Part shown: positions 10,484-58,540 of the stretch, piece after piece | How positions within the stretch are numbered: the stretch's first letter is position 1 | Layout: each line of letters starts with the position of its first letter | Assembly: GCA_028285205.1 (NCBI GenBank) | Contig: JANQQA010000122.1 | Coordinates: 62,001-126,000 of the forward strand | Length of the DNA: 64,000 nucleotides | Source of the DNA: Bythopirellula sp. | GTDB taxonomy: Bacteria > Planctomycetota > Planctomycetia > Pirellulales > Lacipirellulaceae | Direction: 5' to 3' | Program-made: the position numbers and the translations under genes | The notes under the pieces: model-generated | The model's database searches: none | Seen by the model: only the letters and a program-made list of their open reading frames with translations | Told to the model about the DNA's origin: nothing

Positions 10484-11356
10484 CTACCGCCCTGGCAACG
10501 CGCCCGCATGCGAACAGGTCGCCGCTGCAACTTCGCAAGCGGAGTGCAGCACCTCGTGATGAGTTTCGGCTCGCGACACGCCCAGCAGAAATGCCGCTGC
10601 GAAGGCATCTCCCGCTCCGACCGTATCTTTCACTTTGACCGGCATCCCTGGTTGGCTGACGATATCATCGGCAGTAACCAACACCGCGCCGTCTGCGCCA
10701 CGAGTCATCACCAGCAGGTCAAGATCGCCCGATTTGAATAGCTCGCGAAGTTGCGTTTCAACGGGCACGGCGGAATCGATGCCGCACGCGGACACGACTT
10801 CTGGCAACTCGTCGTCGCTGAGCTTGAGAATGCTGGCCAGTTCGATCGAGTCGCGAATAAGTTGGCCGTCGAAGTACGGCGAACGAAGGTTAATGTCGAC
10901 GAGACTCGTAGCGCCGATTTTCTCTCGTGCCGTTCGAATACCGCGTCGAATGGTATTGCGAGCCAACTTTGCACGTTGGCCCAGCGTACCGAAATAGACG
11001 GCGTCTGCGTCTCTTAAGTGCGATTCTATCTGGTCGGTCCAGCGTAGGTGGTCCCACGCCGAGTTCTCGTGGATCGTGAAGGACGGCTTACCTGCCGCGT
11101 CCACTGCGACGCTGACCGTGCCCGTGGGAACGTCCGCTTCGGTCTGAATCAAGCTCACGTCGATTCCAAAGCCCCGCAGAATCTCAATTGCCTCCCGTCC
11201 ATGGCGATCTACACCAACCGCGCTGACCATTGAGACGTTCGCTCCTAGTCTTGCCGCATGGCTGGCAAAATTTGCCGGGGCACCACCGAACTGCTCCCCA
11301 GCGGGGAAGATGTCCCACAACACTTCGCCAAAAGATACAATTTTGGGACTCTTCAT
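10484..11356 (-). CDS. PfkB-family carbohydrate kinase, fructokinase-like
   Basis: A 290-residue ribokinase-fold kinase. It starts KIVSFGEVLWDIFPAGEQFG, and the next residues GGAPANFASHAARLG match the substrate-binding N-terminal PfkB signature. DTVGAGDAFAAAFLLG near residue 244 is the anion-hole and catalytic-base motif, with Asp250 as the general base. GDLDLLVMTRGADGA is the nucleotide-side strand. The pattern is closest to bacterial fructokinases that phosphorylate fructose or a related sugar with ATP in the cytoplasm, but the substrate cannot be fixed by eye. The length is normal. It stands alone on the minus strand, just upstream of and divergent from the sulfatase run, so it may serve sugars released there. 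Confidence 0.88.
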   Translation of the reverse strand: MKSPKIVSFGEVLWDIFPAGEQFGGAPANFASHAARLGANVSMVSAVGVDRHGREAIEILRGFGIDVSLIQTEADVPTGTVSVAVDAAGKPSFTIHENSAWDHLRWTDQIESHLRDADAVYFGTLGQRAKLARNTIRRGIRTAREKIGATSLVDINLRSPYFDGQLIRDSIELASILKLSDDELPEVVSACGIDSAVPVETQLRELFKSGDLDLLVMTRGADGAVLVTADDIVSQPGMPVKVKDTVGAGDAFAAAFLLGVSRAETHHEVLHSACEVAAATCSHAGALPGR

Positions 11357-11780
11357 GCTTACTTCTCGTCCATTATGCCAAGCTGGGACTACATCTCATT
11401 TGGTCGAATCGTTTTGGTTTCTAAAACGAGCGTTCTTACACGATGCAGTTCTGTTCCCACAAAAAAAGCTTGGGATTGAAGTGCTGTTCAGGTTCAGAAT
11501 ACGCCATATCGAAATGCAATAGCAAGTCGAGACTTAAGCAACTCAATTTCAACAGCCCATTTCGCTCGCAACCGATCGAACAGCGAGTTGCTTGCTACGG
11601 AATCGCACATGATAGCCACGGACGGCTCGACTACCGCAGTGGGCTCTGGAAGGGTGTTGATTCCCAATGAGTGCAAGTGCCTTAAGTTCCACTCAATGGA
11701 CTGGTGTAAGTTGTGTATTTGGCGGCTAAAATTGAGGAACGAAGAATAGCGAGAAATCAACATACGGCGAAGGCGGGTTC
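11357..11780. other. Intergenic region between divergent kinase and sulfatase genes
   Basis: About 420 bases between divergent genes, so it should hold promoters for both the kinase and the sulfatase operon. It is A/T-richer than the flanks. Short overlapping ORFs here lack motifs and are judged non-coding. No operator or promoter could be assigned with confidence. Confidence 0.5.
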
Positions 11781-43870: not shown

Positions 43871-46210
43871 CTACCGACTCTTAGTGGAACGTGACACGGA
43901 CAAGACGAAACCCAGCAACCCGCCCATTAACAGTAAGATCGAGTTTGGCTCCGGAACCGCTGCCAGTGACTGTTGTGTGGCGAGCGCGTTGCCAGCGTAC
44001 ATCGACTGCCAGATGGCCAAGTCTTCTGAGTCGACCTGCCCGTCGCGGTTAGCATCGCCTTCGGCGAGCGTCGTGCCGGTGCCCAGTCCGCGTTGCCAGG
44101 CGAGGAAGTCATCACCATCAACGTCACCATCCTGATCGAAGTCAGCGTCATCGCCAGCGACCAGGGTAACGCCCTCGATCACAATATCATCAAAGGCGAA
44201 AGCTTCGCTACCACCGTCTGTCGAGGCAACCAACTGGATCGTGAGCGTGTCGCCGATTTCATCGATTGAAGCACTAAGCGTCTGAAATAGATTCGATAGC
44301 TGCGTGGCATTGCCATCAATATCGTTCATCACCAGTGGATCGTTCAGCAGAAAACTATCACCATCAGCGAGCGTGTAGGTAGCCGATCCTGCCTCATCAA
44401 CAGAAGACGTGAACAGCGCCATCGCTGGACCTTCATCGACGGCATAAGTCCACTCGAACGAGTCGGAACTACCTTCGAAATCGCCCATCGCCGCCATGTC
44501 GATCGAGATTGACAAATTACTCGCTCCGGCGATGTCAAACTCCCAAGTGGCCGTTCCCATGCCGGAGGGATTGTCGCCATTGACGATGTCCGTAATCCCG
44601 AACCAACCATCCGTCTTGGAAGCTTCGTCGACGATTCCCTGATTGTCGATGGGACTGCCATTGCCAGAAGCGTCCACCAGCGACGCTGGTATCGAGGAAC
44701 TCACGCCTACTTCAAAACGCTCAAAGCCATCGCCACTACTGGAAAACGCACCTGGCAGTGGCGATTGAGTGAAACTATTCAGTCCGATCGGGTCGTCAAA
44801 ATCGTCTCGCGCCAAAAACGGCACTTGGTTCACATCGCCGACGGCATAGCTCACAGGAATGTTGATCGTCGAGTTCGCCGCTCCCTGGCTGGTTGTAGTG
44901 ACGGTGATCGTGCCGGTCCGAAGTCCTTCAACTGAGGTGTCGAACATAATCGAATGCGTCGTCGCACCGCTCAACGCGAGCTTTGTACCACTGCCGCTGC
45001 CGACCAGATCGCCGCTCACGCTGAAACTGTAATCCAATTCGTCGGCACCCGCAGCTAGAAGCGCGCTGGCCGCGTTTTCAATCATTAGATCAGCACTAAA
45101 ACTCGCGCCCACCGGAATACTCGGAGGAATCTCCGCCAGTTGTGCGCTGAGTATCGCAGGCACTTGATAGTCTGCCACTACCGGCAGGTGGTCGCTGGCG
45201 GTCGTGAGTGCAGCTAGTACGTTGGCGGCTGCGCCAGTGCCTGTCGTAATCGCCTGGTTGAAATTGCCGTGGGTACCGTTGTTTCCGAACGCGCGGTAGC
45301 TGCCCGGAATATAGCTGAGCCCTTCGTCGTCCAGGAACTCATCAGTAACCAGCTGAAAATCAAATCGATCGTCCACCCCGCCGGTTACTTGACCCGGAAA
45401 CTGCGACGAACTCGCCGGACTCTGCGTATGAGTACGCTTGATCGTAGGATTGCTGCTGTTGTTCCAAGAGCCGGGAGTGTCAATCGGGTCGAAGGCTTGT
45501 CCGTTGCCAGCAGACAAGAGCTCTGCATAGCTGCTTTCAAACGAGCTCCGCACATTGAAATCGCCAGCGTAGATGATATGCGTCCCCTCTCCCAACGCAT
45601 CGGCACTCGTCCGTACGCCTTGAGCCTCAATCAATCGGCGATCCCGATCACTCGAGGAAGTCCCGGCCTTATAATGATTGTTGAACACAAAAAAGTCAGC
45701 GGCAGAATCGTAGCCAGCGGGGCGCAGCTGATACCGCAGGGTCTGGCGCGCCTGATTGCTCCCGTTTGCCGTCCCAAACGCGACCTCATTGACTAATTCA
45801 ACCGTCTGCGTGTTGTACACTAGTCCTGGCCGACCTCCCGATCCTTCGAAGAAGAAATCTGCTGATGCGGCTCCGTTGATGTTTGACCGCGCGTACATCG
45901 TACGATTGATCGGGTCATAAATGTCGTTGAGCACATCGACAAACGATTGTGTCGAAGTCGCCATGAAGTGTTGCTCTTGCAGCAGCAAGACATCGATCGG
46001 CTTAGCAATCCCACCGACGTTTTCGTTGCCGATGGCCTCCAACACCGTGTCAGAGCCCGGGCGGGCGGTAAATGCGTCGAAGTCCGTGTTCGCCGTCGCG
46101 GTGTTGTACGTAACGATGCGCAGTTGTGCTCGCGCATTCGAGACTGCGCATGCCCACCACAGGCAAATCAGCAATCCCAAGAACCACAGATGTGGCGAAA
46201 AAAACTTCAT
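43871..46210 (-). CDS. Exported EEP-family nuclease/phosphodiesterase with dockerin-like module and PEP-CTERM signal
   Basis: A 779-residue protein with a signal peptide (about 8-28, ending NARAQ). The endonuclease/exonuclease/phosphatase domain (about 29-350) has LRIVTYNTATAN, DVLLLQEQHF with the metal-binding Glu, YAGDFNVRSS and the final TASDHLPVVADY. About 360-690 is beta-rich, perhaps an adhesive domain. Dockerin-like loops DFDQDGDVDGDDFLAWQRG and DANRDGQVDSEDLAIWQ follow, then AAVPEPNSILLLMGGLLGFV and a basic end: a textbook PEP-CTERM. GGAG lies eight bases before the ATG. It is the last of five consecutive minus-strand PEP-CTERM genes. EEP proteins cleave phosphodiester bonds; substrate not established. 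Confidence 0.9.
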   Translation of the reverse strand: MKFFSPHLWFLGLLICLWWACAVSNARAQLRIVTYNTATANTDFDAFTARPGSDTVLEAIGNENVGGIAKPIDVLLLQEQHFMATSTQSFVDVLNDIYDPINRTMYARSNINGAASADFFFEGSGGRPGLVYNTQTVELVNEVAFGTANGSNQARQTLRYQLRPAGYDSAADFFVFNNHYKAGTSSSDRDRRLIEAQGVRTSADALGEGTHIIYAGDFNVRSSFESSYAELLSAGNGQAFDPIDTPGSWNNSSNPTIKRTHTQSPASSSQFPGQVTGGVDDRFDFQLVTDEFLDDEGLSYIPGSYRAFGNNGTHGNFNQAITTGTGAAANVLAALTTASDHLPVVADYQVPAILSAQLAEIPPSIPVGASFSADLMIENAASALLAAGADELDYSFSVSGDLVGSGSGTKLALSGATTHSIMFDTSVEGLRTGTITVTTTSQGAANSTINIPVSYAVGDVNQVPFLARDDFDDPIGLNSFTQSPLPGAFSSSGDGFERFEVGVSSSIPASLVDASGNGSPIDNQGIVDEASKTDGWFGITDIVNGDNPSGMGTATWEFDIAGASNLSISIDMAAMGDFEGSSDSFEWTYAVDEGPAMALFTSSVDEAGSATYTLADGDSFLLNDPLVMNDIDGNATQLSNLFQTLSASIDEIGDTLTIQLVASTDGGSEAFAFDDIVIEGVTLVAGDDADFDQDGDVDGDDFLAWQRGLGTGTTLAEGDANRDGQVDSEDLAIWQSMYAGNALATQQSLAAVPEPNSILLLMGGLLGFVLSVSRSTKSR

Positions 46211-46329
46211 AGACTCTGCTCCGACAGGCGATAAACTCTTGCCCTAATCTTCCATTAGACTATGCCACAAAAAACGAGGCAACGATTTATACCGGTTGGA
46301 TCAGAGATATGTGCCAACTTAGCGCAACT

Positions 46330-48150
46330 TTATCGACATGATCGGATTCGCGACGTGCACGGCGACCAGAACACAAGTGATACAACTACCGACGTGATCG
46401 TCGTTGGCTCAGGCACAATCTCGGAGGTCAACAACGCGGACTGGGTGGCATACTGTTGCCGCCAAATCGTCAAATCGAGGTCGTCGACGATCATGTCCGC
46501 ATTGGCATCGCCCTGATCTTGCCCAGTTCCCTGCATGAAACCTTGCTGCCACGTCAAATAGTCGCCGCCGTCGATGTCCAAATCGGAATCAAAATCGGCC
46601 GCCTCGCCCGCGGGCTCCACACTGCCAACCAAAGTAAGCTGTAGCTGCTCCAAGTTCGCGGCACCCGGAAGATCTTCGTCGGAGAAGCTCAAAGTGAAGG
46701 TGGTTAGAAAATCACCTGCGACAGACGTATCTAGCATCGCCGTAAATTCACGATTGGCGTCAACTTCCAAGGCATCGTCACCCGCGAAAGCACTCAGGTC
46801 GGTCGTCAGTGTTGCGCTATCTCCGCTCGCGAAGATCTCATCGAGTTCCAATGCAGCAGTGAAATCCGTTGTTGCTTCTAAATTGAAGAGGTCGAATGTC
46901 CAGGTTGGGGCCACTTCACCGAGCGTAACGGTACCAAAGTCGTGCGTCAGCACGTCGAGATCGATATCACTGGCGAACGACGGATTCGCGTGATCAATCA
47001 CGTCGAGCGTGATGTCGATCACGTCGTCCGCGTCATTTGCGCCCCGCCCTGCCCCGCCGTCTGTGGTGATGTCCAGGTTGTCGATCGTCACGCTGCCAAC
47101 AAGTTGCCCGGCCGAAGACGTGTCGGTGTCGAGCCCGACGCTCAGCGAAGCAGTGTCGACTCCGCCAGTGCGGAACGCATTGTAGGAGTCTACCTTGTTG
47201 CTTGTCCCCAAACCGGAAGTCATCACACGGTAGTACGTGCCGTCGTTGCCCGTCTTGTCGAGCGTGATCGGCTGATTCGAGGGCGTCGGAGCCCCTACGA
47301 AGACCCGACCAAGATCCACATGCGCCGTCGAGCCGCCATTTCCCTGCGGCGTCGTACCAGCAATCGCGATCTGGCTGTCGTTCTGCTGATCGACAAACAC
47401 ACTCCAAACGAATTCGGGGCGATCGACGTACGGATTCCGATTCCGTTGATAGCTATCGTAGATCACATCGTTCCGCCGCAGTTCGAACTCGTCGGGAGGC
47501 GCGGCGAAGTGCCATTCGATGAGCCGATTCAGATCGCCCATCGTGGTGCCGTTGATGCCAGGATTTCCGGCCACCAGCTCGAGGTCGTCGGTTGCACTAT
47601 CAGAATTGTCGTAGCGCGTCGCCGTGTAAAACTGCTGCCGAGCAATCATTCCCGCATCGGCATCGCCGGGGTACCACTTGAGGCCGCCATCCGATACGGT
47701 GCCGTATCCTTGAGCTCCAAAAGCTCCCCCAAAGTTCAGGTGCCCACGGTCACTGTTCACGCTGATCGTCGAGGGCCGGAGCTGATGGAGGTCGCTGTTA
47801 TCCGGCCCGGAGGAATCAACGCCCCGCGAGCGCGGCCAAGTGTGCTCACGATTCCATGCGCTGTGATTCGAAGCCGTCTGCGAAACGCGGTCGTAGACGA
47901 GAAGAATCCGGCTAGGGTTCGAAGGATCACGGTCAGTGACCTTCAGAATATTTCTTGTCGCTGAGTACGAGAATACCGTGTGGGCGTCGATGATGTTGTG
48001 CAACTGGCTCTTTAGCGTGACGCCGCTGCCGGTTGCCGAACTATAATACGTCGGCGGAGGATCATACGGACCGGCGACGCAGGGTGCCACTCGCACAGCA
48101 ATGGCCGGCACCAATGCCACTTGCAGTACCGTAAGGATTAGCCGCATCAT
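46330..48150 (-). CDS. Exported endonuclease I-family nuclease with dockerin-like module and PEP-CTERM signal
   Basis: A 606-residue protein with a signal peptide (about 3-20). The endonuclease I (EndA/Bsn-type) domain spans about 25-260; ASNHSAWNREHTWPRSRGVD carries the catalytic His of the beta-beta-alpha-metal fold, followed by DNSDLHQLRPSTISVNSDRG. Such enzymes cut DNA nonspecifically. A beta-sandwich region (about 280-540) includes DFGTVTLGEVAPTWTFDLFN, an abnormal-spindle-like or choice-of-anchor domain. The dockerin-like part is DFDSDLDIDGGDYLTWQQG and DANADMIVDDLDLTIW, with several canonical Asp replaced. The end is VPEPTTITSVVVSLVFW plus basic residues. ATG codons at 48150 and 48147 are both possible; the TTG at 48171 is less likely. 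Confidence 0.9.
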   Translation of the reverse strand: MMRLILTVLQVALVPAIAVRVAPCVAGPYDPPPTYYSSATGSGVTLKSQLHNIIDAHTVFSYSATRNILKVTDRDPSNPSRILLVYDRVSQTASNHSAWNREHTWPRSRGVDSSGPDNSDLHQLRPSTISVNSDRGHLNFGGAFGAQGYGTVSDGGLKWYPGDADAGMIARQQFYTATRYDNSDSATDDLELVAGNPGINGTTMGDLNRLIEWHFAAPPDEFELRRNDVIYDSYQRNRNPYVDRPEFVWSVFVDQQNDSQIAIAGTTPQGNGGSTAHVDLGRVFVGAPTPSNQPITLDKTGNDGTYYRVMTSGLGTSNKVDSYNAFRTGGVDTASLSVGLDTDTSSAGQLVGSVTIDNLDITTDGGAGRGANDADDVIDITLDVIDHANPSFASDIDLDVLTHDFGTVTLGEVAPTWTFDLFNLEATTDFTAALELDEIFASGDSATLTTDLSAFAGDDALEVDANREFTAMLDTSVAGDFLTTFTLSFSDEDLPGAANLEQLQLTLVGSVEPAGEAADFDSDLDIDGGDYLTWQQGFMQGTGQDQGDANADMIVDDLDLTIWRQQYATQSALLTSEIVPEPTTITSVVVSLVFWSPCTSRIRSCR

Positions 48151-48207
48151 CCGCCAACCGTTCACCAACAATCAAGCACCTTCAGCTTCTGTTCCGATAA
48201 AGAAAAA

Positions 48208-48240
48208 ATTGGCCATGCTCCAAATTGGAGCACGGCCAAT
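48208..48240 (-). terminator. Intrinsic terminator of the lamin-tail-domain gene
   Basis: Arms ATTGGCC-x-TGCTCCAA and TTGGAGCA-x-GGCCAAT form a 15-bp stem interrupted by one A-C mismatch, with a single-base loop on paper (three or more in practice). On the minus strand it is followed by TTTTTTCTTTA, complement of 48199-48208. It lies 37 bases beyond the stop of the gene ending at 48277. Confidence 0.9.
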
Positions 48241-48276
48241 GTTCAGGACATACAAGCAGTCGAAGCAATCCGAAAA

Positions 48277-49887
48277 TTACTTTCGACGTGCGAACGGCAA
48301 ACATGCCAGAGCAACACCCATCAATGCGACCGACGTTGGCTCGGGGACCGCGGCCGCTGAGAGACCGCCGCTGGCTGGATACTGAGCCTGCCAATCTGGA
48401 ATGAGCGCAGGATTGGTCTGCTGAATCAGTAGGAAGTCGGCGCCGTCGACGTCACCATCGTTGTCGAGATCCACGTCGGCTAGAGTATCGACTGTGAAGG
48501 TGCCAGGCGTACCAACATCGCCTCCCGCATGGAAAACGACCATTCCCGTCCCGCCGGATACCTCGGCAGCATTGAACGAGCCGATCAAATCACCTTGAGC
48601 CGCATTGTCCCAGTTCACTCCGTCCGTTGTGTCCAGATCAAGGCCACCGAGCGTGATCGAAGGTCCTTGCGACAACGCTGGGAAGCCTGCGGCCTCGTCA
48701 TACGCCTGCGAGACGATCGTATTGCTGTGCACATTGTGGTCGTCACTGTAGCTGGCGAAGCTGTTCCACAGTCCAACGGTATCGCTACCGTTATTCAGTG
48801 CCATCGCACCCCAGTTCGTGACGGGGATCAAGTTCAGCGTATCGCCCCAGGCAGTCTCAAAGTCGTCCTGCAAAGTTTCGTCTGCATTGAACAAAACTGC
48901 CGTCTCACCGGCTGCAATCATCCCGGACGCAATGTTGGCACTCTCGTGTGCCGTGTTGTTGATATCGTCCACCACATAGCCAGCCAGATTGATCGTGGCA
49001 TCTGTCGTGTTGTAGATTTCGATCCATTCCCAAGGACGTTCGGGACTGGCTCCCGAATCGTAGAGAATTTCCGTGATCATCAGGTCAGGAGCATTAGCGG
49101 GTGCCGTGCCGGCAGGCGCGATACCTGGATTGCCAATGTCGCTGGTACTATTGATGATGCCGGGAACCTGAACCTCGACGCTCGTTACCGTGTTTGGACC
49201 GGCTTCGTTCAACGACCAATTGCTGCCCACCTGATTGCTACCGTTGCCGCTCCATTCAATCGATCCGGCGCCATCATCGGCGGGAAAGTCCGTCGAATAA
49301 TTGATGCTGAACGCCGCGTTGGCGAAGCTAGTCACGCGGTTGGTAAACACCCCAGGTTCGTTGATTGGATCGTCTTCGACCGGCGAGATGTCTGCGGCAT
49401 AGTCAGACGCATTTGCCCAGAACGCAATCGACTGGCCGTCGGACCCTGTCGAGTTACTTAAGCCCGGCCAGAAGCTGGCCGAAATCACCGGAACCGAGGG
49501 AGCTAGTCCCCAAGCGGCCCGAAAATTCTCATCAACGTAGTTCTGCGCATTGCCGGTTTGGATAAACCCGTCGTAGATGACGGCCACTTCGCCAGCACCG
49601 ATCACGGTGTTTGCGGCATTAACGCTGTCAATCGTTGGGTTAGGGCTTGCTACCTCTGCATCCATAAGGTTGAAGCCCAAGTACCCATCTAGGTCGACAG
49701 CCGATCCGCCGGTATTGCGAACTTCGATCCATTCCCAAACACCATCGTTGTTGGGATTGAACATGATTTCGGTGATCTCAAGTTGTGCGTGTGTCAGAGG
49801 TGTCATGGCCAGCATGCTCAACGCAGCTAGCGTCACGCCTATCCCTTTCGTCACGCCCAATGAGAATCTTCGCGGTCGTTTGCTCAT
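48277..49887 (-). CDS. Exported protein with two lamin tail domains and PEP-CTERM signal
   Basis: A 536-residue protein with a signal peptide (about 12-34). Two lamin tail domains (LTD) are visible: the first (about 35-150) has LEITEIMFNPNNDGVWEWIE and VRNTGGSAVDLDGYL; the second (about 265-390) has LMITEILYDSGASPERPWEW and IYNTTDATINLAGYVV. Between and after them are beta-rich stretches. A dockerin-like loop DVDLDNDGDVDGADFLLIQQ precedes VPEPTSVALMGVALACL and FARRK, a PEP-CTERM. Bacterial LTDs occur in secreted proteins and are often fused to nucleases; this one is separate but lies next to two nuclease genes. No catalytic domain is seen, so a binding role toward DNA or cell surface is inferred. 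Its own strong terminator follows. Confidence 0.9.
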   Translation of the reverse strand: MSKRPRRFSLGVTKGIGVTLAALSMLAMTPLTHAQLEITEIMFNPNNDGVWEWIEVRNTGGSAVDLDGYLGFNLMDAEVASPNPTIDSVNAANTVIGAGEVAVIYDGFIQTGNAQNYVDENFRAAWGLAPSVPVISASFWPGLSNSTGSDGQSIAFWANASDYAADISPVEDDPINEPGVFTNRVTSFANAAFSINYSTDFPADDGAGSIEWSGNGSNQVGSNWSLNEAGPNTVTSVEVQVPGIINSTSDIGNPGIAPAGTAPANAPDLMITEILYDSGASPERPWEWIEIYNTTDATINLAGYVVDDINNTAHESANIASGMIAAGETAVLFNADETLQDDFETAWGDTLNLIPVTNWGAMALNNGSDTVGLWNSFASYSDDHNVHSNTIVSQAYDEAAGFPALSQGPSITLGGLDLDTTDGVNWDNAAQGDLIGSFNAAEVSGGTGMVVFHAGGDVGTPGTFTVDTLADVDLDNDGDVDGADFLLIQQTNPALIPDWQAQYPASGGLSAAAVPEPTSVALMGVALACLPFARRK

Positions 49888-49915
49888 GATAATTCCTTAC
49901 AAGAAAAATATACTT

Positions 49916-51970
49916 CTAAGCCCTATTCCGTCTGCTAATGAAATACATCGTGCCCAGACCGCAGCACAGCAACAAAGTGCTCGGCTCTGGAACCGCCGCA
50001 TTGGCGGCCGCCAACGAGCCGACCCCTGTGCCATAGTTACTCTGCCAAGCCGTCAGGCCACCTGGGGTTCCATCATCGCGCTGCCATGCCAAGAAGTCAG
50101 CGCCGTCGACATCGCCGTCGCCGTCAAAATCACCAGGCGTGGTGCCGATGATGCTTTGCAACTCGACGATATCGTCGTTGTCGATCACGCCATCGCCGGT
50201 GAGGTCATACCACTCGTCCAACAACGCAGTCGGGGCAGCGACTGCATCACCAAGCGCCGTGAGGTCGCCGCTATCGACCATGCCGTCGTTATTGATATCG
50301 CCACGCGTAAAGACAAGCGATGTGCCTTCGTTAAAGATGCCGATATCAAAGGGATTCAACTCGTGGTAGACGATCGTGCCAGTAGCTGGGTCAAAGACGT
50401 AAATGTCTTCGGCGAATCCAGTGTCCTGATCAATGATGTAAAGGTAGCCTGTGCTCTTGTCATAGGTAACGCGCGTCGTGTTCGTGACGGCATCGTCATT
50501 GTCATTCCCTTCCTCAGCGGATATCGGGAGGAAAGCCGACACCGTGTACGGATCGGTGTCGTCAAAGCCTGTCCCCGCAGGACCAGCAGCCAACACCTCA
50601 TTCTCGCCACTGCTATCGGAATCAGGGCTGTCATAGCTTTCGATGCCCACGGTAATGACGCGAGCCTCTTGGGCCGTCTCGCCGCCGGCGCCCGTCGGAG
50701 GGACGGTACTGCCAATTGTTACGTCGAAGAAGCCATTCTCAACGATCACTAGATTGCCGTCTTTGTCCACGAACAACGCATCGACTTCGGCGTCGTTAGA
50801 CAATGGATCGACCGTCGGGTCTTCGGCTAATCCGAACTGTGTTGCCAGTGCGGGACCAGTTCCACCTTCCAGCGTATTGGCGAGTTCCCTCTTGGTCGCG
50901 GTCGGCCCTCCGACAGCGTTCAAATCGATTTCGTAGAACGCGATATCATCACCCCCGCCATCCGAGTCGGCCGCCCATACGCCCAAAACACCATCATGAT
51001 TGACGAGTGTAAAGCCCGCAGGATTGGTTTCTGTACCGGGATCCAGTTCCAATCGACCGGCAACAGTTGATTCCCAAGACTCAGTGTTGGATACACTGTT
51101 GTAGCCACCCTCTTGATTTGGAGGAGCTGGGAACGGTGGGGTCGGCGTCGTCGCATTCCCTTGTGTGTCGCTAACGCGACTAAGAATCTTGATTGCGAAG
51201 TCTTCATCGGCTGGAGTCGTCGTACCGATGTTGGCATCCATCAACACCAAGGTCTCAGGATTGACAAACTCTAGCTGGTAATCGAAAAACGATGCCGGTG
51301 ATTGGGCCCGCCCCGGCTCGCCAACCTTCTGAAAGGCTCCGTCGAGATGAATCGTTGTCACGCCCGACGGATGCGGAATGTTGTTCGCCAGGCCATCTGC
51401 CACACCATCGAACAGCGGACTGCCGATGTCCTGTAGAATCTGTTCAGTGATAACCTCGGTCGTAAGGGCAGTTGGTGCGTAGATCGTCCCCTTTTCTCGT
51501 TCATTGGTGACGAAATCCGCCAAGATCTCTTGGTAGTCGATGCGATACAAATCGAAATCGCCTTGTGAGTCGCCTACCGGATCGACAGCCGGTGGGGTGC
51601 CACTGTCGAATGCCGCCGCATAGATCGTTCCGTTGGCCGGGTTAACAGTGAGTGCTGAGAACTCCTCGCGGTTACCGAAAGGCAAACCCTCTGGCAAATT
51701 GTTCAGTTCCCCTTGAAAAATCTCGAACCCCATCCAGACCGCGAACAAGGGATCGTTATCAAAGACCCCTGACGTGGCTCCGTTGCCAATGTCGGTGACA
51801 TCGTAGAACAGGATCGAATCCGAAGGGGCACCGGCGATCTCGCCGACTCCGTTGGGTTGCACCTGAGAAATCGCCATGATTTTTTGCGGCATGGCGTGAA
51901 CGAAAGCCGGACTCAGTACCATGGAAAGTAGCGACGCGAACCAAATCGTGCTTGCGAGTCGCGTGGTCAT
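49916..51970 (-). CDS. Exported protein of unknown function with three calcium-loop motifs and PEP-CTERM signal
   Basis: A 684-residue protein. The ATG at 51970 has AGGAG eight bases upstream and gives a clean signal peptide (MTTRLASTIWFASLLSMVLS). The body (about 30-560) is Gly/Asp/Thr-rich with phrases such as FSALTVNPANGTIYAAAFDS and TTIHLDGAFQKVGEPG, suggesting a beta-propeller or esterase-like fold; no family is assigned. Near the C-terminus are three EF-like loops: DINNDGMVDSGDL, DLTGDGVIDNDDI and DFDGDGDVDGADFLAWQRD. The end is VPEPSTLLLCCGLGTMYF and SRRNRA, a PEP-CTERM. It begins 29 bases upstream of the LTD gene's start in the same direction, so the two are probably co-transcribed. 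Confidence 0.82.
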   Translation of the reverse strand: MTTRLASTIWFASLLSMVLSPAFVHAMPQKIMAISQVQPNGVGEIAGAPSDSILFYDVTDIGNGATSGVFDNDPLFAVWMGFEIFQGELNNLPEGLPFGNREEFSALTVNPANGTIYAAAFDSGTPPAVDPVGDSQGDFDLYRIDYQEILADFVTNEREKGTIYAPTALTTEVITEQILQDIGSPLFDGVADGLANNIPHPSGVTTIHLDGAFQKVGEPGRAQSPASFFDYQLEFVNPETLVLMDANIGTTTPADEDFAIKILSRVSDTQGNATTPTPPFPAPPNQEGGYNSVSNTESWESTVAGRLELDPGTETNPAGFTLVNHDGVLGVWAADSDGGGDDIAFYEIDLNAVGGPTATKRELANTLEGGTGPALATQFGLAEDPTVDPLSNDAEVDALFVDKDGNLVIVENGFFDVTIGSTVPPTGAGGETAQEARVITVGIESYDSPDSDSSGENEVLAAGPAGTGFDDTDPYTVSAFLPISAEEGNDNDDAVTNTTRVTYDKSTGYLYIIDQDTGFAEDIYVFDPATGTIVYHELNPFDIGIFNEGTSLVFTRGDINNDGMVDSGDLTALGDAVAAPTALLDEWYDLTGDGVIDNDDIVELQSIIGTTPGDFDGDGDVDGADFLAWQRDDGTPGGLTAWQSNYGTGVGSLAAANAAVPEPSTLLLCCGLGTMYFISRRNRA

Positions 51971-52108
51971 ATCAAATACTCCTAGCTGGGGCGGAATCTT
52001 CTCTGTGGCGAGCATTGCAGCTCGCGTGCCTCTCGATGCCCTGACAGCACATCTCGAAGTTCCGTCGATTTCCTTGTGGCGAGATGTGGGGATAAAACGA
52101 CAAAGCGA

Positions 52109-52135
52109 GCCGCCGCCTGAAAGACCGACGGCGGC
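52109..52135 (-). terminator. Possible terminator after the PEP-CTERM gene ending at 52198
   Basis: A GCCGCCG/CGGCGGC stem with a 13-base loop lies 63 bases after the stop of the minus-strand gene. On that strand it is followed by only a moderately T-rich stretch (TCGCTTTGTCGTTTT), so termination is plausible but weaker than at 48208. Confidence 0.5.
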
Positions 52136-52197
52136 CCGCAAAACTATTCAATCAATTGCCTGCAGAACGCATCACTGCGTGTCTCAGGCCAAGGCAA

Positions 52198-53073
52198 CTA
52201 AGCTACGCGACGTCGCGAAGCGGCAACCCCAGCCAACGCGAGCAGTGACATGGCTGCGGTGGTTGGCTCTGGAATTCGAATATTCGATCCGTTCATTGCA
52301 TTCCGTAGAACGCTATCGAAATCGTCACCGAAAGCCACCGAATCGACCAAGATTTCGTGATCGCCACCGCCGGAACTGAAATCCTGACGGAGCGCTAGAT
52401 TGTTGATCAATGTGAACGCGCCCGCGGAGTTTATGTCAGTGATCTTGGTACTATTGATGTCGGTCGGATTCACCCACAGATTCGATTCACCGGAGTCGAC
52501 TGCGTAGGAGACAACGATCTTGTATTGCTCGCCGAAGCTGAGATCAGAACCCCAAGCAACAGCCTGCCCGCCGGAAGTGGCCGACAAGCCAAACGTAAAC
52601 CCAGCTCCACCAACACCCGCGTTAGGATCATCGACATACGCTCTGCCACGGAAGCCGAAGCCATCGTCTTTGAAGTGCATGAAGTAATCATTGTTTAGGC
52701 CATCCACCTGTGGGTTGGCCCGCTCATCATTCACCGTTACCAACGCCGCGTAGTACCATGTCTCACCGAGGCCAATCTCAGGTCCAGTAACTGCCAGACT
52801 TGAATCCTCGTAAGCGGGATTGCCAGATTTGATGACTGCTTGCTCAGACTCGACGCCAATCGGAATCGGAAAGAAGTTCGGGGTATTGTGCGAACGCCAA
52901 AGTCCTCCCGACACGTTATCACCGGTACCGTCGGGGCCGTTGGTTGGATCGTAAGCTGTCAGATCACCATCCGCGTAGCTAAATGTGTCGCTAAAAAAAG
53001 TCGCTGCCTGAGCAGATGCAGCGGCGAACACCACCATCGCGATGGCAGCAGAAAACAAACTGGTACATCTCAT
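52198..53073 (-). CDS. Exported PEP-CTERM protein of unknown function
   Basis: A 291-residue protein. The ATG at 53073 has GGGAG upstream and opens a signal peptide (RCTSLFSAAIAMVVFAAASA). The mature part starts TFFSDTFSYADGDLTAYDPT and reads like a single beta-sandwich (LamG- or jelly-roll-like) domain, with ETWYYAALVTVNDER and FGEQYKIVVSYAVDSG. It ends RIPEPTTAAMSLLALAGVAA plus SRRRVA, a PEP-CTERM with Ile before the PEP. No dockerin loop is present, unlike its four downstream neighbours. It is the first gene of the minus-strand PEP-CTERM run and divergent from an EEP gene. Confidence 0.82.
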   Translation of the reverse strand: MRCTSLFSAAIAMVVFAAASAQAATFFSDTFSYADGDLTAYDPTNGPDGTGDNVSGGLWRSHNTPNFFPIPIGVESEQAVIKSGNPAYEDSSLAVTGPEIGLGETWYYAALVTVNDERANPQVDGLNNDYFMHFKDDGFGFRGRAYVDDPNAGVGGAGFTFGLSATSGGQAVAWGSDLSFGEQYKIVVSYAVDSGESNLWVNPTDINSTKITDINSAGAFTLINNLALRQDFSSGGGDHEILVDSVAFGDDFDSVLRNAMNGSNIRIPEPTTAAMSLLALAGVAASRRRVA

Positions 53074-53489
53074 TAGAACTTCTCCCAAAACAAAAAACCC
53101 ATGCGTGGACACAATCTCAGAGCGATTCGCGGTCAAGAGTCACCCGCCAAAAGCAACCTGAGCATGAAACTCGACGGAACTCGACAGACGGCCGGAATCT
53201 CCACCCTTCGGGCGTGATAGAACCATCCGCACTTCAACCTATGATATACAGCGATTGTGACGATTAGGCGAACAATGGGAAGAAGAAATAGAGATTTTCT
53301 GCCGATTTACGGCAACTACCCACATCGGAAGCGATTGGGCCTGGGCCAGCTATTCTGCCACATTGCGGCCTGACTTGTCCGGGGTGCTCAGAAGTTCTTA
53401 GCGTGACAGATCTTACGAGAAGTAGTTCAGCAGTTCACAATCGTTCACGTGTTGAAACAAATTTTCTTACCGACAGCCGGAGCTCCAAG
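53074..53489. other. Divergent promoter region between PEP-CTERM and EEP genes
   Basis: About 415 bases between divergent genes; it should contain promoters for both directions. No gene, hairpin or repeat was recognised, and a 29-residue upstream extension of the EEP ORF to 53403 does not look like a signal peptide. Confidence 0.45.
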
Positions 53490-54752
53490 ATGTGTCAACG
53501 GAATCCGTTATCCCACATTGGCATCTGCGTTGCTCAGATCACCCTCGTTTTGGCCAGCTTGGCCAGTGCGGAAACTGTGAGATTTGCCACATTCAACGTC
53601 TCGCTCTATGACAAGTCTCCTGGCAGACTCGCCCAGCGATTGGCAACTCGCGACGATGTACAGGCTCGTACCATCGCGGAAATCATCCAACGAGTCCGCC
53701 CCGATGTGCTGCTGCTCAACGAGTTCGACTACGAGCCACACGACTCGGCCATCCAGGATTTCCTCACCAACTATCTGGCTGTCGGCCAGCACGTCTCGCA
53801 ATCGCCCGACGGACCTGCCCAGCCGATCGAGTACGCCCATAGATTCAGAGCCGCTTCCAACACCGGCGTCTCGTCTGGCTTCGATCTCGATCGTGATGGC
53901 ACTGCGCAGCAAACGCCAGGCGATAGCCAATACGGTGGTGACTGTTGGGGCTATGGCGAGTATCCAGGCAAGTATGCAATGGTGCTGCTTTCTCAGTATC
54001 CCATTGATTCCAAGGCAGTTAGGACATTTCAGCGTTTCCGTTGGCGCGACATGCCCGCAGCGCGATTGCCAGACGACCTAGAAACAGCCGCACCGCGCGA
54101 TTGGTATTCTGGAAAGATCTTGGAACAATTCCCACTTTCCTCCAAATCGCACTGGGATGTACCGATTCGGATCACGGGGCAAACGCTGCACGTCCTCGCA
54201 TCGCACCCCACGCCACCGACCTATGATGGCCCAGAAGATCGCAACGGTCGCCGCAACCACGATGAGATCCGCTTCTGGGTCGACTACATCGATCCGGACT
54301 CATCAGGATACATTTATGACGACCAAGGCCAGCGAGGCGGCCTGCCCTTGGGAGAGAAGTTTGTCGTAATGGGCGACCTCAACGGCGACCCCGCTGACGG
54401 CGACGGTGCCGAAGGGATCCAACGCCTGCTCAATTCGCCGCATGTGAATCCTATCCCGATCCCGGAGAGTGCAGGTGGCGCAGAACAAGCCCGGCTGCAG
54501 GGCGGAGCCAACGCGACCCATGTCGGCAAACCGAAATACGACACGCTCGATGCGGCAGACGCTGACGGCCCCGGCAACTTGCGAGTTGACTATGTAATCC
54601 CCGCAACGTCGCTCACGACACTTGCATCAGGCGTGTTTTGGCCCGAAAATAAAAAACGGCTGTTTTCGCTGGTCGGCACCTACCCGTTCCCCAGTTCGGA
54701 TCACCGCCTCGTATGGATTGATATTGTGTTGCCAGTGGTTAGCGGTCAATAG
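53490..54752 (+). CDS. Exported endonuclease/exonuclease/phosphatase family protein
   Basis: A 420-residue protein. The ATG at 53490 has GGAG seven bases upstream and starts a signal peptide (LSHIGICVAQITLVLASLAS). The EEP domain fills the rest: VRFATFNVSLYD at the start, DVLLLNEFDYE with the metal Glu, VLASHPTPPTYDG, FVVMGDLNGDP and PSSDHRLVWIDI at the end. Large secreted EEP proteins of this kind are annotated as phosphodiesterases or nucleases, substrate unproven. Unlike the EEP at 43871 it has no dockerin and no PEP-CTERM, so it is probably periplasmic or released. It is followed by a DUF1559 gene 93 bases on. Confidence 0.9.
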   Translation: MCQRNPLSHIGICVAQITLVLASLASAETVRFATFNVSLYDKSPGRLAQRLATRDDVQARTIAEIIQRVRPDVLLLNEFDYEPHDSAIQDFLTNYLAVGQHVSQSPDGPAQPIEYAHRFRAASNTGVSSGFDLDRDGTAQQTPGDSQYGGDCWGYGEYPGKYAMVLLSQYPIDSKAVRTFQRFRWRDMPAARLPDDLETAAPRDWYSGKILEQFPLSSKSHWDVPIRITGQTLHVLASHPTPPTYDGPEDRNGRRNHDEIRFWVDYIDPDSSGYIYDDQGQRGGLPLGEKFVVMGDLNGDPADGDGAEGIQRLLNSPHVNPIPIPESAGGAEQARLQGGANATHVGKPKYDTLDAADADGPGNLRVDYVIPATSLTTLASGVFWPENKKRLFSLVGTYPFPSSDHRLVWIDIVLPVVSGQ

Positions 54753-54845
54753 TCAGCAGCCGGTAGATCGTGTGTGATCTACTGGCGAACCAAGCAGAGC
54801 GAGCTTGCTGATGGCTGCGCGCCAGAAAGAAAAAAGGGAAGAGCC

Positions 54846-56015
54846 ATGGCTCAAGAGCATTTTCGCATTCCGAAGCGGGTCCGCGCTTTCACGCTAGTCG
54901 AATTGTTGGTCGTGATCGCGATCATCGGCGTTCTCGTTGCGCTACTACTCCCGGCCGTCCAGGCTGCCCGTGAAGCGGCCCGTCGCACCCAATGCATCAA
55001 CAATCTCAAACAGATGGGGCTGGGCTCTGCGAACTACGAAAGTGCCCGTGGCGTTTTTCCTCCAGGTCGCCAGTTTCCGGACTTAGAAATTGGCGGCGAG
55101 ATCCAGAGAGGGTATACCACCTATCCATCATCACTTAGCCCGAACGACCGAGGCGGCTTCTATTCAGTGCACATCTGGTTGCTGCCGTTCATGGAAGCCA
55201 CCAATGTTTACAACCTAATTGATTTCAGCCTCCCGCAAGTCAAGCAAATGACCAGCGGCGGCACCCCCACCAACCCCCATTACCAGGCTTACGCCACAGC
55301 AAATCAGCTCTTCGTCTGCCCAAGCGATGGCAACACTGTCGAGACGATTACCGCAAACAACTACCGTTCGAACTTTGGCGGTAGCACACCAGGTGCCGGC
55401 GCACGCCAACGCGGTCAAGAGCACATACTCGAACCAACGTCACGCGACGCTTGGCATTGTGGCGGCAACGGCGCGTTCACTGCAGGCGTCAGAGGACTCA
55501 AGGCCGGTCAGTACGAGGATGGCCTGTCAAACACGGCGTTCTTCTCAGAACGAATTAAAGGTAGCGGGATTGTCTACCCCGAGTCGGCCATACCAACCAG
55601 GGGCGATATGATCACTTGCCAGCCGGAGGGAGGCCCAACGGCCGACTTCTCGGTAGTCTTCAATGGGATGTCCAACTACACGCCGACTGCGCAATCTCAC
55701 GTACTTGGGGCAGCAGGCAGGTGGCTTCCAGGGACCGACTTTTCGAATGGGTGGCCGTTTGCCGGGTATGATTCTACGCAGTACAACCACGTCGCCCCAC
55801 CAAACTGGAACAGTATCGACTGCGCTCTCTCGCGCGGCATCCCAGATACAATCGCTGAACATGCCATCGTCGCGGCACGTAGCGACCACCCAGGCACTGT
55901 GAACGTAGCCTTCGGCGATGGCCATACCGAGACGATCAGCGACTCGATCGATCTACTCGTCTGGCGTGCGATGGGCTCCCGCAACGGCGGCGAAACCGTC
56001 AATAACGAGCGATAG
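54846..56015 (+). CDS. DUF1559 domain protein with type IV prepilin-like N-terminus
   Basis: A 389-residue protein. [20 protein letters not shown] (about 15-34) is the prepilin helix; the residue before Phe is Ala (Ala14) rather than the usual Gly, with Glu at +5 retained. [11 protein letters not shown] and [13 protein letters not shown] follow, then PGRQFPD. The C-terminal motif [15 protein letters not shown] is the H-x9-DG element in its full form. The ATG at 54846 is preferred to 54774 because GGGAAG lies just upstream and it begins the prepilin leader. It sits between an EEP gene and a PhnD-like gene on the same strand, so it may belong to the nutrient-acquisition cluster. Cargo or binding function unknown. 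Confidence 0.93.
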
Positions 56016-56069
56016 CGGTCTACGCCGCCTCGCTTAGGAACTTGAAACGAATTGGGGAGAAATCGTTTG

Positions 56070-57161
56070 ATGAAATGCACGGTAAGCATGGGCTCGGGTG
56101 GCTTTATTCGTAAACGCGTCATTGCAGCACTCGTAGCTGTCGCGGCGATCGCGGCCTCTTGGACGTTCTACATCACTTCGTCTTGGGAAGCACAGGAGCA
56201 ACGCGCGCTCGAACAGCGGACCGCAAGCAATGTGTTTGCCAACATGGCTGTTGCTGCGTCGCTGGACGATGTTTACCAGGATACCGATGGCGACCTGGTC
56301 GCCGACGCACCTGAGCAAGAAGCGCTGTTGGCCAAGCCGACGACTCTGATTTTTTCCTTCATTGCTTCCGAGGGAGTCGAGAACAACGCCGACGTCTGGA
56401 AAGCGGCCACCGATGCGATCAGCGAAGGCACAGAGCTACCAGTCAGCTATCTGAGGCTCGACGACTCGCAGGCTCAGTTGGCCGCGCTTCGTAGTGGTCA
56501 GTTGCACGTCACAGCCTTCAGTTCTGGTACGGTACCGACCGCGGTGAACCGAGCTGGCTTCACTCCGATTTGCACGATCGGCATGCCCGCCGAAGGCGAG
56601 GAAGCTGCGAAGTTTGGCTACACCATGCAGTTCATCGTCAAAGCCGATAGCGCAATCCAAGACTTGAATGATGTGCGGAAAAAGAAGATCGCCATCGTAC
56701 GTCCCAGTTCCAACTCCGGATGCAAAGCGGCAATGGTCCTACTCAAGAACCAACACGCCCTGCTCCCTCAACGCGATTACGACTTCTACTACTCCTACAG
56801 TCATGACGCTTCGATCCAGGCGGTGCTCTCTGGCGAAGCCGACGCTGCGCCCACAGCGAGCGACATCCTCGACCGGTTGCTGGCCAAGGGGGAAATTGAT
56901 GCTGACAGCTACCGCACTATTTATGAATCTGAGCGATTCCCGCCGTTTGCGTTCGGCTGTGCTCACAATCTCCCGTCGGAAGTTCGAGACGCGATCAAGA
57001 CCGCCTTGCTGGAACTCGATTGGTCGGAAACCAAGCTGGCCGAAGAAATGGGTGGCGGCGAAACGAAGCAGTTCTTGCCCATCTCATACAAAGACGATTG
57101 GGCCAACATTCGCCGCGTCGATCAAGATGCCAGCAACATCAATAACTCGTTGCGGCTGTAA
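56070..57161 (+). CDS. Membrane-anchored PhnD-like phosphonate/phosphate-binding protein
   Basis: A 363-residue protein. The ATG at 56070 has GGGGAGA eight bases upstream; a TTG at 56052 would add six residues. One membrane helix or uncleaved signal lies at about 17-35. After a linker with DTDGDLVADAP comes a periplasmic binding domain (about 90-355): LDDSQAQLAALRSGQLHVTA, FSSGTVPTAVNRAGF, KKKIAIVRPSSNSGCKAAMV and HDASIQAVLSGEADAAPTAS match the PhnD/SsuA-like ligand-binding family. PhnD proteins bind phosphonates or phosphite for an ABC importer, but no ATPase or permease gene is adjacent. It may work with a distant transporter or as a sensor. Confidence 0.87.
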   Translation: MKCTVSMGSGGFIRKRVIAALVAVAAIAASWTFYITSSWEAQEQRALEQRTASNVFANMAVAASLDDVYQDTDGDLVADAPEQEALLAKPTTLIFSFIASEGVENNADVWKAATDAISEGTELPVSYLRLDDSQAQLAALRSGQLHVTAFSSGTVPTAVNRAGFTPICTIGMPAEGEEAAKFGYTMQFIVKADSAIQDLNDVRKKKIAIVRPSSNSGCKAAMVLLKNQHALLPQRDYDFYYSYSHDASIQAVLSGEADAAPTASDILDRLLAKGEIDADSYRTIYESERFPPFAFGCAHNLPSEVRDAIKTALLELDWSETKLAEEMGGGETKQFLPISYKDDWANIRRVDQDASNINNSLRL

Positions 57162-57178
57162 TCAGCTCTGCTGAACGA

Positions 57179-58423
57179 TCAATTTAGCTGAAACCAAGCT
57201 ACAACTGGGTTGTGATCGGAGCCCGACGTCTTCACGCCGCCAGGAATCGTGCGATAACTCCCCGGTACGAACTGCTTAGCCATGGCGGGCGAGCAGAGAA
57301 TGAAGTCGATCATCGATCGGTGGGGCTCCTCATTGTAGGTGATCAACGATTTGCTGGCCGCCTCTGATAGTGGCAGTGCGAGCGCGGACGGGCCGCTGCC
57401 CACAATGGTCTTGAGCGTTGGACTCTCCCAGGTGTCGTTAAAGTCGCCCATCAGCAAAATCTGGGCATCCGGATCGGCTGACAGCCGCTGGTCGAGTTGC
57501 TGACGCAGATACTGCGCCTCGGCCAGCCGGATCGGTTCGGCGAATTCACGTCCGCCCGAGTTGCTCTTGAGGTGCAAGGGCCACACTTCCAGTGGTGATT
57601 TCCCGGGGGGGTGTAGTGTAATGCTAAGCAAATCACGCTGCATCTTCCGCTCTCGCCCGTCCGGACCGGAGAACTCCACGTGGCGGTGCGACTGCACGGG
57701 ACCAACAGGAATGCGAGATAGCAGGCACACATCAATGCCGCGAAGATCGTTTCCCTCGTAATGCACGACATGCTCGTAGCCCATATCACGGAGAAAGACA
57801 TCTCGGAATCGCTTCAGATAGCCCCGAGACTCGACCTCTTGCAACGCTAGGATGTCGGCATTGAGCTCGCGAATTGTACGAGCGGCGTTCTCCATCTGAT
57901 CGCGTGGCTTAGCGGGCGTGGTCTCATCGGCAAAGTATGGGCTGTCGACTTCGTCGAACAGATTCAGCATATTGAACGTCGCGACCACCAATTGATCTTT
58001 GGAAGCCTGTCGCGTCATTTGCTTCGGTTTCGCTGTCTTGGGCAGCTCGTCGACGACCTCAATTTGTGCGGGATCGGTCACAATAATCTGCGGCCGATCG
58101 CGGTGCGTGGAGATCTGACCGCGTAGCTTCACCAGCTTGCCTTCATACATTTTCTTGATTTGATCGGGAAACTTACCGTAGTTGTCATCGAACACGACGC
58201 CTGCGAATCGAGCTGGTCGTTCCTCGTCGAAGTTGATGAATGTAATCGTCCCGATGTCACGGACATTGATCACTTTGCCGCAGACAAATGCGACATCGCC
58301 GATCGCGTCGACTGCGTCGCGCCAATGAATCGACATTATGCCTTCGTCCGCATCAATGATTTTCTGCCCGAAGGCGTTTGCGGATACAGCGAAACAGAAC
58401 AAGACAGCAACTAGGTGTCGCAT
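57179..58423 (-). CDS. Exported OB-fold plus endonuclease/exonuclease/phosphatase protein
   Basis: A 414-residue protein. The ATG at 58423 has GGAG just upstream; the ATG at 58435 would add four residues. A signal peptide spans about 3-19. An OB-fold-like nucleic-acid-binding domain (about 32-125) includes VAFVCGKVINVRDIGTITFI and KLVKLRGQISTHRDRPQIIV. The EEP domain (about 147-414) has VVATFNMLNLFDEVD, DILALQEVES, RGIDVCLLSR, LLMGDFNDTW and the closing SGSDHNPVVAWF. OB plus EEP is the core layout of secreted nucleases such as ExeM, without their LTD or membrane tail. It converges on the PhnD-like gene with 17 bases between stops. Confidence 0.92.
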   Translation of the reverse strand: MRHLVAVLFCFAVSANAFGQKIIDADEGIMSIHWRDAVDAIGDVAFVCGKVINVRDIGTITFINFDEERPARFAGVVFDDNYGKFPDQIKKMYEGKLVKLRGQISTHRDRPQIIVTDPAQIEVVDELPKTAKPKQMTRQASKDQLVVATFNMLNLFDEVDSPYFADETTPAKPRDQMENAARTIRELNADILALQEVESRGYLKRFRDVFLRDMGYEHVVHYEGNDLRGIDVCLLSRIPVGPVQSHRHVEFSGPDGRERKMQRDLLSITLHPPGKSPLEVWPLHLKSNSGGREFAEPIRLAEAQYLRQQLDQRLSADPDAQILLMGDFNDTWESPTLKTIVGSGPSALALPLSEAASKSLITYNEEPHRSMIDFILCSPAMAKQFVPGSYRTIPGGVKTSGSDHNPVVAWFQLN

Positions 58424-58540
58424 CGGGAACTCCATCGGAAATTGAACTTAGCTTGGACCACGTAATCTAACGCCAAGCGGACCACAAGAGCCATGTTCTC
58501 CGATGATCTGCCCGAATACAAGGATCAATTTCTCGGACAG

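Follow-up and report, generated by a model that had tools for sequence, protein, structure and literature searches.

In the cyanobacterial phoA-nucH operon, an extracellular nuclease lies behind tandem Pho boxes (box CTTAACCT) and is under SphR control (PMC1906773). The Shewanella protein ExeM combines a lamin tail domain (LTD), an OB module and an EEP module in one protein with a C-terminal sorting signal of the rhombosortase type (PMC6085458), and the "DNA-degradation loci" of Ca. Izemoplasmatales contain an LTD nuclease and further nucleases, with phosphate-transport genes adjoining (PMC8289736). Here, we describe a block of nine genes, numbered P1 to P9 in Table 1, from the planctomycete Bythopirellula sp. 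The window, the whole stretch of 64,000 nt that was analysed, covers positions 62,001-126,000 of contig JANQQA010000122.1 (GCA_028285205.1), and coordinates count within it. The block is probably an exported nuclease/phosphodiesterase locus linked to phosphate and, as such, probably a multi-protein variant of phosphate-linked nuclease loci that are already known. Judged by title or by the opening of the abstract, none of the literature matches listed described such a locus from a planctomycete, which does not prove that none exists.

A first-pass annotation of this sequence, made without database searches, had proposed nine consecutive genes, and all nine open reading frames were found in place, spanning 43871-58435; the likely true starts of several lie downstream of those in the list of reading frames. 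Because five genes point left (P1-P5), three right (P6-P8) and one left (P9), the locus is not one operon, and the block is predicted to comprise at least three transcription units.

Table 1. Features of the P1-P9 locus, in window coordinates.
Feature	Coordinates	Strand	Assignment	Basis
P1	43871..46210	-	Exported EEP-type protein with a second part, dockerin and PEP-CTERM	Profile matches, EEP motif alignment
P2	46330..48171	-	Endonuclease I domain; dockerin-like loops and PEP-like tail, both by eye	Pfam, motif alignment
Hairpin and T tract	48208..48240	-	Directly 3' of the LTD gene P3	
P3	48277..49887	-	Pair of lamin tail domains; PEP-CTERM; a dockerin-like loop seen by eye	
P4	49916..52141	-	Exported protein with dockerin and PEP-CTERM, tentatively a beta-propeller; translation probably starts near 51970	
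P5	52198..53136	-	Exported PEP-CTERM protein, no other assignment; likely ATG near 53073	
Pho-box-like site	53253..53276	-	Score 11.0; coincides with the genus-shared footprint	
Pho-box-like site	53273..53296	-	Score 12.8; pyrimidine-rich	
P6	53403..54752	+	EEP protein lacking a sorting tail; start probably at 53490	
P7	54774..56015	+	DUF1559 / H-X9-DG pseudopilin	
P8	56052..57161	+	PhnD-family binding protein; nearest solved relative GpxB	
P9	57179..58435	-	Exported OB-like and EEP protein, ExeM/NucH-like; OB-like part inferred from weak profile matches	

Relatives were compared over about 20 kb, or as far as the contig allowed, around the endonuclease I (EndoI) gene and around P8; several of their genomes are merely 76-87% complete. 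Matches reaching the EndoI domain of P2, of which one copy was found in its own assembly, occur in 21/36 family genomes and in 7/14 of the genus (own genome included, among the matches listed; matches in the other genomes were weaker). The same seven genus genomes carry P6 (E <= 1e-40) and P8 (E <= 1e-15), and neither was found at these limits in the other seven; in the family, each is present in 29/43 genomes. The full order P1-P2-P3-P4-P5 / P6-P7-P8 / P9 recurs in three other genus genomes (G012, G006 and G004), an additional P5-like gene separating P2 from P3 in G012 and in G004, and three further ones have a partial block. In G010, P3-P4-P5 / P6-P7-P8 is kept with a P1-like EEP segment beyond P3; its EndoI gene is on the contig that carries P8, some 35 kb away from it, and no P9 was seen there. 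G002 shows P2-P3-X / P6-P7-P8 / P9, with the contig edge at P2, and G005 shows P2-P3 / P6-P7, with P8 and P9 on a different contig. Outside the block, flanking gene B was undetected in the fetched stretches of the relatives and gene A was seen as distant relatives only, while flanking genes C and D were found only in G012 and the gene at 62046 in G002 and G012. Since the flanking genes change between genus genomes, the cluster limits proposed at the first pass are good ones. In two genomes of the genus, P7 and P8 are separated by a small gene (L054, 6884-7324; L116, 8680-9159) that the window lacks; for the copy in L116, a TPR match was obtained under cut-off.

In a second genus (G015 and G028; loci L038 and L043), EndoI and genes for parts of P1 are divergent to P7-P8: an EEP-like frame of about 420 codons matches the first part of P1 (in L043 at 15 bits for Pfam EEP, under cut-off), and a separate gene matches the second part. 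P1 resembles two genes joined into one, an EEP gene and a further one (cluster 19), which are apart in G015 and G028; cluster 19 also occurs in G002 (loci L038, L043 and L054). For the other 12 of the 21 family genomes listed with EndoI, the fetched stretch showed none of the remaining parts, except for tail-only matches and, in L048, a DUF1559 relative (29%). The P8 relatives of those 12 adjoin other genes, among which nitrite/sulfite reductase, pgpA, folD and an rRNA methylase recur by eye.

Beyond the family, P4 is rare, with four matches beyond the tail among 392 genomes sampled from the phylum, own genome included. Locus L159, from a different class of the same phylum, has the order P6 / LTD - pilin - P4 - P1. 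At this locus, P6, LTD and the pilin start are confirmed by Pfam, and P1 was recognised by its motifs and by 43% identity across 591 residues rather than by Pfam EEP; no EndoI domain was found beside this core. A P1-like EEP gene directly precedes P4 in a metagenome-assembled genome of the Phycisphaerae (L149), and in L158, close to the end of a contig, P4 comes after a pilin. The block is therefore kept in the genus and its core in another class, so that lack of conservation, named at the first pass as grounds for discarding the proposal, was not what we found. In L160, P4 stands amid other PEP-CTERM genes, P1 not being there; in this stretch (G305:C7:2800-22700), the products of eleven consecutive called genes carry VPEP-type tails, several preceded by an LDGVLLNWG-like stretch.

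Profile searches bore out most of the proposed domains. P2 exceeds the gathering cut-off of Endonuclease_1 (PF04231; 3.2e-30, 106.1 bits against 25), Pfam finds LTD in two stretches of P3, as predicted, and P7 is assigned to DUF1559. Of three proposed EEP proteins, P6 (84.1 bits) and P9 (two Pfam models) are over the cut-off, whereas P1 scores 21.8 against 24.5 but nevertheless has the EEP motifs. The residues N, E, H, D-N, D and S-D-H, which we take to be the EEP motif positions, are kept in all aligned rows of P1 (6/6, two of them from outside the family), P6 (8/8) and P9 (6/6). NREH, presumably the catalytic motif of Endonuclease I, is found in the P2 of the window and in 24/25 aligned rows; in the odd row (L048:7234), the match to P2 spans the C-terminal half only. 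Loss of catalytic residues, a check proposed with the annotation and made here by sequence, was not seen. The predicted structure of P6 has low confidence (48.8) and matches EEP folds, with TDP2 nearest and SmcL, the B. cereus sphingomyelinase, human neutral sphingomyelinase and INPP5B further down; searches of P6, P9 and P1 against PDB sequences gave no useful EEP match. The family nearest to P9 is ExeM/NucH (NF033681), at 48.8 bits against a cut-off of 300. That family joins LTD, OB and EEP in one polypeptide; here LTD occurs only in P3 and EEP in P1, P6 and P9. Since the motif residues are kept and EEP folds are matched, P1, P2, P6 and P9 are likely to be catalytically competent; that their substrate is DNA or other phosphodiesters is unproven.

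Five PEP-CTERM tails in a row had been proposed. Four pass TIGR02595 (cut-off 16), namely P1 (18.8), P3 (16.4), P4 (17.3) and P5 (16.4), and the tail of P2, without a TIGR02595 match, was recognised by eye only. At 46330-46420, P2 keeps VPEP and a hydrophobic run, yet the PEP-CTERM models miss it; most P2 relatives pass a simple tail test. Similarly, of four proposed dockerin-like proteins, P1 and P4 match Pfam Dockerin_1, whereas the loops of P2 (two) and P3 (one) were seen by eye. No sorting tail was called in P9. Exosortase genes were detected by profile search at three loci of the same genome (best 180.8 bits), in which dockerin/PEP-CTERM tails are common (178 first-look candidates, 22 of these scored). 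PEP-CTERM proteins are abundant in such genomes and, to our knowledge, few have a known role. When compared with PDB sequences, P4 matched essentially through its EF-hand and dockerin parts only; structure matches of its predicted model are mostly propellers, none at E <= 0.001, and its designation as a beta-propeller protein is tentative.

P8 had been called PhnD-like. It belongs to the PhnD family by Pfam Phosphonate-bd (165.9 bits) and the broad TIGR01098 (143.2 against 112.05), but falls short of the PhnD equivalog TIGR03431 (106.5 against 261.1). Its best solved relative is GpxB (PDB 9LF9, E 1.6e-56), which binds glycerol-1- and glycerol-3-phosphate (PMC12718374). In an alignment of 30 rows, two of which (L042 and L140) are overlapping fragments of a single gene, the P8 of the window is 35% identical to GpxB and the other rows 33-41%. 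The phosphate-head residues of GpxB (Thr/Ser111, Gly112, Tyr138, Ser168, Asn169, Ser170 and His199) are kept wherever covered; of the tail residues, Arg223 is present in 25/30 rows and Thr247 in none, the window copy having Arg and Phe. Among 157 open reading frames within three of P8 in these rows, none has an LSGG-type ABC signature, and of the three with at least four hydrophobic stretches none is an ABC permease by eye. A PhnE/Gpx-type permease was also sought in the seven genus genomes: PhnE exceeded its cut-off in none, and three weak matches look by eye like the choline/betaine type. Given the GpxB match, the conserved head residues and the lack of a recognised ABC partner, P8 is better named a GpxB-like phosphorus-ester or phosphonate binding protein.

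The gap between P5 and P6 contains a footprint common to the genus. In the family, pstS promoters carry direct repeats CTTMAYA-N4-CTTMAYA with the 11-base period of the Pho box (repeat geometry as in PMC4415409), which yields a family Pho-box consensus before pstS; for such a consensus, no paper was found in the literature library searched. Scanning 31 loci gave 21 GSST-type pstS starts, 14 of which beat mononucleotide shuffles at 0.05. The matrix was built from 18 pstS promoters, none from the cluster, after dropping L196 (37 bases upstream only) and L217 and L218 (best site at background). Because each training site is the best match of its promoter, the high scores of the pstS promoters themselves are partly so by construction.

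Scored toward the PEP-CTERM unit, all nine clusters (seven of the genus, two of the second genus) placed within the uppermost 2.7% when set against 566 other genes; none of 300 column-permuted matrices did as well. Among 183 gene-oriented intergenic stretches, at most one outscored each of eight cluster promoters, and four outscored the ninth, that of G005. Shuffling each sequence gave p < 0.05 in 7/9 clusters, these p-values not being independent since the seven genus clusters share ancestry, and in 8/9 the PEP-CTERM-facing strand outscored the opposite one. The highest cluster scores are those of the second genus. In the first matrix run, the cluster regions, the second-genus two included, were part of the background and among its top matches; the second-genus ones were added to the test afterwards. 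An earlier run on windows of the P6/P7 side had given weak values for L042 and L043, their sites being missed, and the PEP-CTERM side was chosen after that. The search for Pho-box-like sites suggested at the first pass thus found a P5-P6 promoter statistically enriched for the family box, although with scores that are weak beside those of pstS. Control of the PEP-CTERM unit by a PhoB-type regulator from this gap is probable, not proven.

Seven sites in the window score 9.5 or more, two in the P5-P6 promoter, one inside P8 and four elsewhere. The top score, 13.5 at 11348-11371 (+), falls at the beginning of a gene for a pfkB-type kinase and points away from it, toward a sulfatase gene at 11781 some 410 bases on. 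The E. coli-type box CTGTCAT-N4-CTGTCAT was also sought in the P5-P6 gap and is unconvincing, its best sites agreeing at 8/14 positions in the window and 10/14 in three relatives.

Directly after P3, a 15-pair hairpin is followed by a T tract. A simple terminator scan found 13 sites overall against 13.2 in shuffles, and the P3 hairpin stands out by its length and conservation: an unbroken stem of at least 12 pairs (G-T allowed) follows P3 in 5/7 genus genomes (the window, G006, G012, G002 and G005), G010 having 7 pairs and G004 an interrupted stem. This hairpin may end or trim the transcript before P2-P1, in which case the nucleases and binding proteins would be made in unequal amounts.

With moderate confidence, we read the block as a phosphorus-scavenging locus in which a PhoB-type switch governs exported, exosortase-sorted enzymes that cut phosphodiesters. 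Under phosphate shortage, a PhoB-type regulator would bind the P5-P6 element and switch on the PEP-CTERM unit, comprising P5, P4 and P3, with read-through past the hairpin into P2 and P1. The exported proteins would be cut at the PEP-CTERM tail by exosortase and held at the surface. Extracellular nucleic acid, or phosphodiesters similar to it, would there be cleaved by EndoI (P2) and the EEP enzymes (P1, P6 and P9); P3, with its lamin tail domains, and P4, the probable propeller, may help to bind or hold the substrate, and P8 could bind a released small phosphorus ester or phosphonate; any part played by P5 and P7 would be conjectural.

A number of observations weigh against phosphorus scavenging by such a route. 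The cluster boxes score 6-14 compared with 25-35 for pstS, the dinucleotide-shuffle p is 0.15 for G004 and 0.058 for G005, and in G005 the opposite strand outscores the PEP-CTERM-facing one. A genome-wide regulon sought with the footprint pattern gave counts no higher than the control. The strict family pattern gave four sites in three genomes against three control sites: two before pstS, one elsewhere in G006, and one at a contig end of the Bythopirellula sp. genome, following what looks by eye like a histidine kinase gene. PhoX, taken as a second positive control (14 loci, 13 scored), mostly lacks a box in gene direction: L240 (9.2), L239 (4.8) and L248 (3.0) have shuffle p <= 0.02, only one of the 13 reaches 9, and the remaining ten do not exceed shuffles at 0.05. 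Clusters outside the family have no gene-direction box, L159 having 10.1 on the other strand. Likewise, the model of P4 is poor (pLDDT 44.8), P8 has no recognised ABC permease or ATPase partner, and the sphingomyelinases and inositol phosphatase among the fold matches of P6 leave DNA unproven as substrate. As an observation apart, four PhoX upstreams have sites on the opposite strand (L248 20.9, L241 12.8, L249 10.7 and L242 8.0), perhaps for a divergent neighbour.

The fold matches of P6 would also suit degradation of phospholipids or other glycerophosphodiesters, with EEP proteins like sphingomyelinase C or glycerophosphodiesterases, P8 binding glycerol phosphates and EndoI an accessory. The ligands of GpxB (PMC12718374) and the missing EndoI beside the core in the other class speak for it; yet LTD is typical of DNA-degrading loci (PMC8289736), as is EndoI (PMC6085458), P9 is nearest to ExeM/NucH, and the P8 rows keep Arg223 of GpxB incompletely and Thr247 nowhere; we regard lipid degradation as unlikely. 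Less probable still is remodelling of extracellular DNA in the matrix, as in biofilm or holdfast turnover, with phosphate merely an incidental cue. Exosortase/PEP-CTERM systems are associated with exopolysaccharide, which would fit such a role. Shewanella ExeM strongly affects biofilm formation (PMC6085458). However, the element ahead of the PEP-CTERM unit resembles the family pstS boxes, and a binding protein of the phosphorus-ester type adjoins the unit. That unrelated exported-protein genes lie together by chance in a PEP-CTERM-rich genome might be argued from the commonness of such tails and from the 12/21 listed family genomes in which other parts are not beside EndoI; we reject it as very improbable, because the order is conserved in the genus while the flanks change, genes are linked in a second genus and the core is found in another class, a synteny that largely refutes it.

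Phosphorus scavenging thus remains our preferred interpretation, and the first-pass proposal of a surface system degrading DNA or phosphodiesters is supported by the genus block, the core in another class, the motifs and the Pho-box-like element, but the box is weak and DNA is not separated from other phosphodiesters. Its further proposal, capture of released phosphorus compounds, rests on P8, for which no permease was recognised. The suggestion that modules usually fused are spread over separate proteins holds only in part: P9 joins OB-like and EEP parts, and P1 joins two parts that are apart in two other family genomes. A bolder version, which we consider doubtful in its entirety, would see a phosphate-controlled, exosortase-anchored surface machine of single-module proteins with dockerin-like and LTD parts, digesting phosphodiester polymers, with P4 a new propeller-type subunit, P8 a receptor that reports rather than imports phosphorus esters, and a core older than, or moved between, two planctomycete classes. 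The locus provides a conserved PEP-CTERM set whose cue (phosphate) and activities can both be tested, in a genus that includes Bythopirellula polymerisocia, whose deposited genome (Pla144) is a named one.

Compared with the known systems, the Izemoplasmatales loci differ in having ABC transporters, none of which was recognised beside P8, and PEP-CTERM goes unmentioned in that text (PMC8289736). P8 shares with GpxB the phosphate-head residues, but not Thr247, and no gpxA/C/D-like partners were recognised (PMC12718374). As in ExeM/NucH, LTD, OB and EEP modules occur together with a C-terminal sorting signal, PEP-CTERM here and of the rhombosortase type there; unlike in ExeM, LTD (P3), EndoI (P2), EEP (P1 and P6) and OB-like plus EEP (P9, in which no tail was called) are separate. 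The phoA-nucH operon has one NucH, whereas here, as known from sequence, there are separate LTD, EndoI, EEP and PEP-CTERM proteins and weaker boxes; its box CTTAACCT nevertheless resembles the one found before the family pstS genes (PMC1906773).

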